The position numbers were made by a program, and so were the translations under genes. Shown here one piece after another: positions 28,894 through 33,969 of a stretch of 64,000 nt of DNA. The number at the start of each line of letters is the position of its first letter. Within the stretch, counting starts at the first letter, position 1. Source of the stretch: Mycobacterium barrassiae (lineage in GTDB: Bacteria; Actinomycetota; Actinomycetes; Mycobacteriales; Mycobacteriaceae); contig NZ_JACKUK010000009.1 in NCBI RefSeq assembly GCF_025822765.1, positions 246,874 to 310,873 of the forward strand, given 5' to 3'. The notes below the pieces were generated by a model. That model saw nothing but the letters and a program-made list of their open reading frames with translations, made no database searches and was not told the DNA's origin.

Positions 28894-30508
28894 GACGGTT
28901 CCTTCCGTCGGTCGCCCGCAGGCGCGGTTGAGTCCAATTGTGGAGGTCATCACGGCCGTTTACAGCGCTATCACCGAGACAGTGCCTTCCAAGTAATTGA
29001 CGACGTAGAGGTGGTCGCCGTCGGGCACCATCGCCATCTGCCATGCACCGTCACCGACGGTGACGGTGGCGACGATGGTGTTGGTCGACGTGTTGATCAC
29101 CGACACCTCATTGGTCCCGGCGCCGAAACCAGAGACGTAGAGGTAGGTCCCGTCGGCAGAGAAGGCCAGGCCCATCGGATTCCACGCGTCGTCGATGACG
29201 GCGATGACGGCGTTGGTCGCGGTATCGATAACGGAAATCGTGTCGCTGGGGCCGTCGTCGGTTACGTACAGCCGGGTGCCATCGGGACTGAGCGCCAATG
29301 AGATCGGAACATCGCCCACATCGATCACGTCGATGGTGGCGCCTGTGGCGGTGTCGAAAACGGACACGCTGGCCGCGAAATTATTGGCGACATAGAGGGT
29401 GGAGCCGTCGGCGCTGAGGGCGAGGCCCCCCGGATTGTCACCGGTGATGTAAGTAGCCACCACGGTGTTGGTCGCGGCGTCGATCACAGTGACCGAATCC
29501 TCTAACGCGTTAGCCACATACACGCGGCTGCCATCGGCGCTGACCACCATCGTGTACGCGGTGACACCGAGGTTGACGGTGGCGGTGACGGTGTTGGAGG
29601 CGCTGTCAATCACCGATACGGTGCCGCCGGTCGCGTTCGCAACGTAGACCGTGGACCCGTCGGGGCTGACCGCTATGCCCGCAGGCTGGTCGCCTACCGC
29701 GATCGTGGCAATGATGGTGTTGGTGGCCGCGTCGATCACCGAGACGGTGTCGTCCTCTGTGTTGGTCACGTACACGGTGTTGCTGTCGGGGCTGACCGCC
29801 ACCCCGAACGGCGTGTCGCCGACGTCGATGGTGTCGACGACGTGGGGCGTCACTTTGACTTCTGGGCTGGGGTCGATATCGTCGCCGACGGTCACCGGGT
29901 CAAACAGCTGCGGCGGTTTGTTCAGCGTGATCGTGACAGACACCGCGGGACCCTGCCCCCGCTTGGCGAGGCCGTCGCTGATGTCGATGGTGAAGGTGTC
30001 GACCTCAGGGCGGGCGGATTCGGCGTCGGCATCCGGGGTGTAGGTGAAAGTGCCGTCACGGTGAACCACGACGGTGCCGTGTTCGGGCTGTTGGGTGACG
30101 GTGAATGTCAACGGATCACCGTTGGGATCGACCGCGCGCAGATCACCGAAGATCGTCCCGTCGGCCAGTTCGACAGTCTCCTTCGGGTCGTAGGCGATCG
30201 TCGGAGCCCTGTTCGAGAGCGTCTGCTGCTCCTGGCGCCGCGCGAACTCCAGCAGCCCCCACAACGCCGGGGCCTCCACCGGAGGCAACGCGGGCGCATC
30301 CGCCGACACCGGACCCAACCCGACCCACGCCAACACTCCCGCCATCAGGTCGGGCACCTCGTCGACGGGAGCCGCGGCCACCTCCACAGGCTCGGTGACA
30401 CTCACCGGCGCTGTGTCGGGCACAGTGCTGATCGCCGTCACCGGCACCGTCACAGCCGATTCGATTTCGCGCAGCGCGGGCTCTTCAGGGACGTCGACAT
30501 CAGGTTCG

Positions 30509-30719
30509 TCGAGTTTGGTCTCGGGTGCGGGCTCGTTCTGCACCGGCGACTCGTACGTCGGCTGCGCTGCGGGACGGCTGTCGTTGTCCGCCACCTCAGC
30601 GCCGGGGCGTTCGGTCGAGTTTGGTCTCGGGTGCGGGCTCGTTCTGCACCGGCGACTCGTACGTCGGCTGCGCTGCGGGACGGCTGTCGTTGTCCGCCAC
30701 CTCAGCGCCGGGGCGTTCG
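30509..30719. repeat. tandem 105-bp direct repeat with one extra base
   Basis: Copy one is 30509-30613 and copy two 30615-30719; both start TCGAGTTTGG and end GGGCGTTCG. The single G at 30614 between them breaks the frame, since 105 bp (35 codons) alone would be neutral. Identical in sequence to 33175-33385. Confidence 0.93.
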
Positions 30720-31354
30720 ATGACCGTGGTGTCGGGAGTGTGATCCGACCCGGACGGCTCCGGCTCGGCTGGGATCTCGGGGATTTCGACGTCATCGACG
30801 ACGTCCTGGCTCACGGCAAAATCCTCGTAGGCGGGATCCTCGGTCGCCGGCGCCTCGTCAGCGGGCTCCTCGCTGGTGGGGCCGGCCGCGTCGGAGGACG
30901 CAGCGGAGTCGTCCGTCTGCTCGTCGCTGCTTTCGGACTTCTTGTCGGAGTCCTCGGATTTCGTGTCCGAGTTCGTCTCCTGCTCAGCGTCTTTGGTCGA
31001 ACCGACTCTCGTGTTGGCGCCACCAGAGGCACTCACCGACGTCGCGGGTTTCTTGTCGTTCGTCGATGCCGACCCTGCAGCGGAGGAGTCGTTCGACGAC
31101 GACTCCTTCGACGACGCGTCCGATGTGGCGGATGTGGCGGCTGACTCCGACGTGGACGACGCACCGGGCGAGCTCGACGATCCCGACGCGTCCGATCCTG
31201 AATTGGACGACGATGAATCGGACGATGAATCGGACGATGACGAGTCCGACGAAGGATCAGCGACCGCGACCCAGGGCAACGCGACGACCGCGGTACCGAT
31301 ACCCAGCGCCACCGCGAGCGCCCCGACTCTGCCGATGTATTTCGCGTTCTCCAT
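30596..31354 (-). CDS. N-terminal product of YVTN paralogue 1 as it reads
   Basis: 252 aa if no frameshifting occurs: signal-like N-terminus with predicted cleavage near VAVADP, then more than 150 residues dominated by Ser, Asp, Glu and Ala, and one 35-residue repeat ending KLDRTPRR. Such a product would be an exported, disordered acidic protein without the propeller. Confidence 0.55.
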   Translation of the reverse strand: MENAKYIGRVGALAVALGIGTAVVALPWVAVADPSSDSSSSDSSSDSSSSNSGSDASGSSSSPGASSTSESAATSATSDASSKESSSNDSSAAGSASTNDKKPATSVSASGGANTRVGSTKDAEQETNSDTKSEDSDKKSESSDEQTDDSAASSDAAGPTSEEPADEAPATEDPAYEDFAVSQDVVDDVEIPEIPAEPEPSGSDHTPDTTVIERPGAEVADNDSRPAAQPTYESPVQNEPAPETKLDRTPRR

Positions 31355-31486
31355 TTCAGTCTCCGTGAATGCTGTAGTCCTGCGCCGCCGGATGGCGCCG
31401 TAGACCAATTGGACAAAGCCGGGACCGCTACCGATCACAAATAACGCCCCGGTCGATAAGGACGTCCCGACCGTTTGAGTGACGAG

Positions 31487-31542
31487 ATGCAACTGCGCAA
31501 TAGCTGGCGCGGTTCATCGGTGCGTCACTAACCAAATCCAGG
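31487..31542 (+). pseudogene. decayed 5' remnant of the F420-type oxidoreductase gene
   Basis: The spacer upstream of paralogue 1 contains ATGCAACTG, CTGGCGCGGTTCA and a following CGTCAC...ATCCAG, which align in order with the first ~56 bases of the intact gene at 34096. Small indels destroy the frame and similarity ends near 31542. It marks the end of a duplicated segment that included the YVTN gene and the beginning of its divergent neighbour. The rest of 31355-31634 holds the diverged promoter side and no gene. Confidence 0.72.
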
Positions 31543-33174
31543 CTGTTCTCAACCGACCTCTGTCAGAGTCGAATCCGTAGCCGCACCACGGCTTCGCACG
31601 ACCAACGGGTCGGCGACTGCACCCACGGCGTCGTCTAAAGCGCTGACAAATCGATCACCGACACGGTGCCGTCGCCGTTGTTCGCGACGTATAGCGTGTC
31701 GCCGTCCGGGCTTACAACCACCCCGAACGGAGAGTCGCCCACGGCGATAGTGCCGATGACCACGTTGGTGGCGGTATTGATAACCGACACGGTGCCACCG
31801 CCGGCGTTGACGACGAAGGCGTAGGCGCCATCGGCGCTGACCGTGACTTCCACCGGAAAGTCGCCGACGGCGATGGTGGTGACCGAGTTCGTGGCCGTAT
31901 TGATCACCGACACGGTGTCGTCGTTGGCGTTGACGACGTAGACGCGGGCGCCGTCCGGCCTGACCGCTATGCCGAGCGGGTCGTCGCCGACGGCGATGGT
32001 GGTGACCGAGTTCGTGGCCGTATTGATCACCGACACGGTGTCGTCGTTGGTGTTCGTGACGTAGAGAGTGCCACCGTCGGGGCTGACTGCAAGGTTATGT
32101 GAGTTGTCACCCACTGCAATGGTCGTGAGGTGGTGGGTGGCGGTGTCGATGACCGAAACGGTCCCGTCATTTTGGGTGACATAGACAGTGCCACCGTCGG
32201 GGCTGACCGCAATCCCGTCGGGAACGACGCCCACCGAAATTGTGGCCGTGACCGTGTTCGTCGTGGTGTCGATGACCGAAACCGTGCCGCCCAAGTTGGC
32301 GACGTAAGCAGTCGCGCCATCTGGGCTTACCGCCACCTCGCGCGGTTCGTCACCGACGGTGATGATGGCGACAACACTGTTGGTCTCGGTGTCGATCACT
32401 GTCACGGTGTTGCCGGTGAAGAAGCCGTTGTTGGTCACGTATAGACGCGTGCCGTCAGGACTGATGGCCATCTCGTTCGGGTTACTTACTTCGATGGTGT
32501 CGACGACCTGAGGAAACACCTTTATGTCTGGGCTGGGGTCGATATCGTCGGCGCCGGCCGACGGGTCGAACACCGACGGCGGGCGGTGCAGCGAGATCTT
32601 GACCGACAAGGCGGGGCCCACCTTCTTCGCAACGCCGTCGCTGATGTCGATGGTGAACGTGTCGAGTTCAGGGCGAGCGGATTCGGCATCGGCGTCGGGG
32701 GTGTAGGTGAAGGTGCCGTCACGGTGGATCACGACGGTGCCATGGTCGGGTTGTTGGGTGACGGTGTACGTCAACGCATCGCCGTCGGGATCGATCGCAC
32801 GCAAATCGCCGACGATCGTCCCGTCGGCCAGCTCGACATTCTCTTTCGGGTCGTAAGCGACGGCCGGCGCCCTGTTGGACAGGCTCTGCTGCTCCTGGCG
32901 GCGCGCGAACTCCAGCAGCCCCCACAACGCAGGGGCCTCCACCGGAGGCAACGCCGGCGCATCCGCCGACACCGGACCCAACCCCACCCACGCCAACACT
33001 CCCGCCATCAGGTCGGGCACCTCGTCGACGGCAGCGGGCACAGCCACCTCCACAGGCTCGACAACGCTCACCAGCGTCGGGACAGGCTCTGTGCTGATCG
33101 CCGTCACCGGTACCGTCGCGGCCGATTCGATTTCGGGCACCGCGAGCTCTTCAAGGACGTCGACATCAGGTTCG

Positions 33175-33385
33175 TCGAGTTTGGTCTCGGGTGCGGGCTC
33201 GTTCTGCACCGGCGACTCGTACGTCGGCTGCGCTGCGGGACGGCTGTCGTTGTCCGCCACCTCAGCGCCGGGGCGTTCGGTCGAGTTTGGTCTCGGGTGC
33301 GGGCTCGTTCTGCACCGGCGACTCGTACGTCGGCTGCGCTGCGGGACGGCTGTCGTTGTCCGCCACCTCAGCGCCGGGGCGTTCG
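33175..33385. repeat. tandem 105-bp direct repeat, second locus
   Basis: Copies 33175-33279 and 33281-33385, separated by one G at 33280. Same unit and same extra base as 30509-30719. Confidence 0.93.
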
Positions 33386-33969
33386 ATGACCGTGGTGTCG
33401 GGAATGTGATCCGACCCGGACGGCTCCGGCTCGGCTGGGATCTCGGGGATTTCGACGTCATCGACGACGTCCTGGCTTGCGGCGGGATCCTCGTAGGTGG
33501 GCTCCTCGCTGACGGGACTCGCCGACTCAGAGGCCGCAGCCGACTCTTCCGACTTCTTGTCGGAATCGTCCGACTTCTCGTCGGAATCGTCCGACTTCTC
33601 GTCGGAATCCTTGTCCTGCTCAGCGTCTTTGGACGAATTGACCCTGGTGTTGGCGCCACCTGAAGCGCTCACCGACGTCGTAGGGTTCTTGTCGTTCGTC
33701 GGTGTGGACCCTGCGTTCGAAGAGTCCTTCGAGGACGGCTCCTTCGACGACGGTGCCGACGACGACTCCGATGTGGACGACGCACCGGGCGTGCTCGACG
33801 ACCCCGACGCGTCCGACCCCGAATCCGACGATGAGGACGAATCGGATGATGACGACGAGTCCGACGAAGGGTCAGCGACCGCGACCCAGGGCAACGCGAC
33901 GACCGCGGTCCCGATACCCAGCGCCACCGCGAGCGCCCCGACTCTGCCGATGTATTTCGCGTTACCCAT
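33262..33969 (-). CDS. N-terminal product of YVTN paralogue 2 as it reads
   Basis: 235 aa without frameshifting: exported, acidic and disordered, ending KLDRTPRR exactly as paralogue 1. Intact promoter side and ribosome site suggest it is at least transcribed and started. Confidence 0.55.
   Translation of the reverse strand: MGNAKYIGRVGALAVALGIGTAVVALPWVAVADPSSDSSSSSDSSSSSDSGSDASGSSSTPGASSTSESSSAPSSKEPSSKDSSNAGSTPTNDKNPTTSVSASGGANTRVNSSKDAEQDKDSDEKSDDSDEKSDDSDKKSEESAAASESASPVSEEPTYEDPAASQDVVDDVEIPEIPAEPEPSGSDHIPDTTVIERPGAEVADNDSRPAAQPTYESPVQNEPAPETKLDRTPRR

Follow-up and report, generated by a model that had tools for sequence, protein, structure and literature searches.

The paired tandem repeats and frame breaks of two neighboring β-propeller genes in the draft genome of Mycobacterium barrassiae are almost certainly artefacts of assembly and not biology. 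The two genes, A and B, lie in tandem on the minus strand within positions 28960..33969 of the window, i.e., the whole stretch of 64,000 nucleotides that was analyzed, which belongs to contig C9 of a 49-contig draft. Both duplications have the dimensions expected if two contig tips, each running 124 nt into a sequence common to A and B, had been set end to end, and the same pattern was found at unrelated loci of the assembly, including the 23S rRNA gene. In the living strain both genes are likely unbroken.

Gene pair and frame breaks

In the draft, A and B are each read as two frames, an N-terminal and a C-terminal one, with the split in the middle of a tandem pair (Table 1). The upstream frames read RTPRR and then a stop, at 30596 in A and at 33262 in B, just past the junction. 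Beyond the duplicated stretch, the downstream frames remain open for 515 and 512 codons, respectively, and the open reading frame (ORF) listing gave no sign of decay in them. The sequence is thus as the original prediction had described it, with two tandem YVTN paralogues, a frame break at the repeat junction of both, and downstream frames of more than 500 codons carrying an adhesion-like domain and seven propeller blades.

The N-terminal and C-terminal pieces of both genes were submitted to domain searches separately. TIGR02276 matched seven stretches in the C-terminal piece of A, in that of B and in the orthologue of a relative with a complete, one-contig genome (G039). The scores were 218.9, 238.2 and 232.8 bits, respectively, against a cut-off of 27.85, which places all three among the YVTN β-propeller repeat proteins. 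Parts of the propeller also scored above the cut-offs of Pfam YNCE, Lactonase and other propeller models. The NCBIfam equivalog models that were hit scored far below their cut-offs, and therefore no specific function follows. Searched alone, the N-terminal piece of A matched no Pfam family at E 0.01, and that of B gave one Pfam match, below its cut-off. Judged by eye, gene A starts with a putative hydrophobic, export-type N-terminus, which is followed by a Ser/Asp-rich stretch.

Table 1. Positions of the two genes, of the inferred contig tips and of other repeats (window positions unless a locus is named).
Feature	Position	Strand	Basis or remark
Gene A	start codon 31354-31352, stop 28960	-	ORF listing
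Gene A, N-terminal frame up to join	30614..31354	-	ORF listing; no Pfam family at E 0.01
Gene A, C-terminal frame past duplicated stretch	28960..30507	-	ORF listing; Big_9/cadherin-like domain; seven YVTN propeller repeats
Gene A, inferred left contig tip	30489..30612		124 nt identical to 33155-33278 of B
Gene A, one-base spacer G	30613..30613		between two inferred contig tips
Gene A, inferred right contig tip	30614..30737		124 nt identical to 33280-33403 of B
Gene B	start codon 33969-33967, stop 31635	-	ORF listing
Gene B, N-terminal frame up to join	33280..33969	-	ORF listing
Gene B, C-terminal frame past duplicated stretch	31635..33173	-	ORF listing; Big_9/cadherin-like domain; seven YVTN propeller repeats
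Gene B, inferred left contig tip	33155..33278		124 nt
Gene B, one-base spacer G	33279..33279		124+1+124 comparison
Gene B, inferred right contig tip	33280..33403		124 nt
Ordinary short-period pairs, 32-33 nt	54512 and 54547 (again in L019); L062:11785		other kind, outside the 60-400 range

Anatomy of the tandem pairs

The repeats are exact tandem pairs of period 106, located at 30508-30613/30614-30719 in A and at 33174-33279/33280-33385 in B, and all four 106-nt copies are 100% identical. The original prediction had described two 105-bp repeats with one extra base at 30614 and 33280; a 105-nt unit plus one junction base is an equivalent description, and either 30613 or 30614 (33279 or 33280 in B) may be taken as the position of the extra G. 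Alignment of the paralogues gave an identical block of 249 nt, 30489-30737 in A and 33155-33403 in B. In either gene this block is made up of exactly 124 nt, one base and another 124 nt. The left half ends with the same 105 nt with which the right half begins, and when written once the stretch common to A and B is 143 nt long. Counted from either end of this sequence, which another locus also carries, the duplication is bounded at 124 nt.

Contig tips and overlap length

Leaving aside contigs made up of N alone, the draft has 41 contigs with 82 tips, and 58 of these tips were examined. Thirteen tip pairs dovetail by at least 16 nt, and all of these overlaps are 121-124 nt long, six of them exactly 124; a further 11 pairs have a common prefix of 123-124 nt. 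From these lengths we infer a contig overlap of 124 nt and k = 125, so that tips overlap by k-1. Both the position of the breaks and the length of the duplications follow from such an overlap.

One contig of this assembly (C4 of G000; 24,593 bases; L056, L102) overlaps by 124 nt at its own two ends, one of the six exact cases, and is therefore probably circular. Over its first 20 kb, 30% matches a Mycobacteroides chelonae plasmid at 87.6% identity, under a MobF relaxase gene. From its sequence, C4 is likely a small plasmid.

The same pattern at other loci

Contig ends and the window, together 1,024,221 non-N bases (about 12 kb of them counted twice, as L018 overlaps the window), contained 13 exact tandem pairs of period 60-400, and the duplicated span was 105-124 nt in every one of them. 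The spacer was a single N in eight pairs and contained no N in five. All five sites without N, the two in the window and those at L098, L104 and L110, fit 124+1+124. At L098 (1086-1334), comparison with a paralogue at L114 (G000 C16:180619-181219) showed two matching halves of 124 nt around a single base that differs; this join falls between, and overlaps, two neighboring open frames that look membrane-protein-like by eye. At L104 the halves correspond to the starts of contigs C40 and C21 (124 nt each); at L110 one half is the 124-nt end of C31 and the other the 124-nt start of C37. A single base separates the halves at each locus. Among the eight sites with an N spacer, only L077 was searched for partners; for its right half a second match was found at the end of contig C15, and for its left half none in the genome.

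Within a 23S rRNA gene (L068, on G000 contig C16) there are three tandem pairs of exactly 124 nt, at 402-650, 1315-1563 and 2333-2581, each with one N as its spacer. Real tandem insertions of exactly 124 nt inside a 23S rRNA gene are not credible, and hence the rRNA operon of this assembly has been misjoined as well. As controls, 400,000 bases of contig interior from the same assembly and 414,001 bases of the complete 6.2-Mb genome of G039 were searched, and neither contained a tandem pair of period 60-400. The pattern thus occurs at unrelated loci of the assembly and is absent from the 414 kb of the finished relative. When the scan of contig ends and window was widened to periods of 30-600, all the extra pairs were ordinary ones of 32-33 nt (Table 1). 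Against an artefact, the sampled contig ends contain 14 isolated N positions, 6 of which lie away from tandem pairs.

Comparison with relatives and between paralogues

The 106-nt unit was searched against 148 genomes of the genus, including its own. At E 0.001, twelve of the 147 others gave a match, which spanned 50 nt or less in 11 cases, and only G039 matched the whole unit, once. With a 721-nt query at E 1e-20 against 397 genomes, own included, again only G039 matched across the unit. Of 396 genus genomes, the window's own among them, 214 had a protein match to the middle domain, and the comparison at the site used G039 alone out of these 214 carriers. Contig scans with one piece and with the three-row alignment gave no confirmed relative among the named genomes.

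The syntenic place in G039 is occupied by one propeller gene with the same neighbors. It contains a single unit, which is 83% identical, and its frame is open for 864 codons from stop to stop. This alignment with a related genome, which the original prediction had proposed as a check, thus yielded a whole gene with one unit.

The alignment shows A and B to be diverged paralogues, 55-73% identical over the propeller and 96-100% identical around the site (150-column windows). At the latter place, the identity of both to G039 is 77-81%. The stretches 30489-30811 and 33155-33477, about 320 nt, differ by one mismatch, and elsewhere the two genes are 55-96% identical (150-column windows). This near-identical stretch likely reflects local gene conversion, and such homogenization is also the likely reason that the repeat is long enough to break the assembly at this place.

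G039 has one gene (L017:5034-7313) where the window has two (28960-33969). Over the propeller this gene resembles A (81-93%), and in its N-terminal and middle parts most windows show a similarity to B that equals or exceeds that to A. Loss of the interval from G039 by recombination would fit the sequences, as would a duplication that arose later in the lineage of the window.

Proposed origin of the breaks

The assembly would have come from a de Bruijn graph at k = 125, so that its contigs overlap by 124 nt. The 143-nt stretch in which A and B are identical exceeds this overlap, and the graph would branch there, each contig running exactly 124 nt into the common stretch from its own side. If scaffolding then joined the two tips within each gene through a spacer of one base, leaving the overlap unmerged, 2x124-143 = 105 nt would be written twice with one base between, alike in A and B, which gives a period of 106. 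The overlap of the tips in the window, 105 nt, is shorter than 124 nt, which counts against the proposal but would be accounted for by the repeat of 143 nt. At other loci of the assembly the spacer is often still an N. The spacers in the window read G, which also counts against an artefact, since a later filling step must be assumed for them. Our guess for the tool behind the one-base spacer is ABySS or SOAPdenovo2.

Overlap artefacts of about k-mer length are known from de Bruijn assemblies. The parts of PMC5368935 that we draw on describe, for de Bruijn assemblers, gaps placed between contigs that overlap and effects seen k bases from contig ends. As here, contig ends at unresolved repeats share sequence of about k-mer length. 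Those parts concern false variant calls at position k, whereas the present case involves false tandem duplications and frameshifts.

Alternative explanations

Four readings had been offered in the original prediction. The one that invoked an assembly error over repeats stood, and a gene-conversion lesion, programmed frameshifting and on/off switching did not, given the arithmetic of the 124-nt overlap and the recurrence of the pattern, including in the 23S rRNA gene. A lesion spread by gene conversion would start from a real 106-nt tandem duplication in one paralogue, e.g., by end-joining plus one base, which was then copied to the other so that both genes were broken. The higher identity of A and B to each other than to G039 around the site makes local homogenization plausible, and the downstream frames of both genes are without decay. 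However, an identical block of exactly 2x124+1 nt would then be a coincidence, and the 11 other sampled tandem pairs of like kind and the contig-tip overlaps of 121-124 nt would remain to be accounted for. We consider such a lesion very unlikely, and there is correspondingly little chance that a real duplication, homogenized between the paralogues, silences the two putatively exported propellers at the same time.

Gain and loss of the 106-nt unit could in principle switch the frame on and off, as the unit is an exact tandem copy whose length is not a multiple of three, and the complete relative has one unit. The 124+1+124 block, the other tandem pairs and the tip overlaps oppose phase variation just as they oppose gene conversion. 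Moreover, a like pattern lies inside the 23S rRNA gene, and among the 147 other genomes of the genus the whole unit was matched in G039 alone, where it occurs once. Switching of this kind is extremely improbable. The probability that ribosomes are programmed to shift frame at the junction is close to nil, even though the downstream frames of A and B stay open for more than 500 codons: the junction coincides with the inferred contig join, no slippery site was seen there by eye, and the G039 gene is read in one frame with no shift, so that conservation of a shift was not found in the one close orthologue compared.

The original prediction had also held that independent loss of both genes at the same base is improbable. 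The pattern is indeed far beyond chance, and an assembly artefact is its almost certain cause. Describing the genes as broken, as the prediction did, was not borne out, since a contig overlap of 124 nt explains the break and unrelated loci show the pattern too.

Significance

The twin break of A and B is almost certainly a de Bruijn artefact, ordinary in the sense that overlap effects of this sort are known, and the biological readings fall away. In a draft genome, an exact tandem copy with a one-base spacer, bounded at the distance of one k-mer overlap from a repeat's ends, mimics a frameshift common to two genes, a contingency locus or a pair of pseudogenes, and the 124+1+124 test distinguishes such a join from biology without reads. 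Annotation would probably mark A and B as broken, and the 23S rRNA gene of the same assembly was hit by a like join. The break in A and B is a warning only and says nothing about the living bacterium. Because the assembly artefact accounts for the pattern, switching, programmed frameshifting and a shared loss of the two genes are not needed to explain it.
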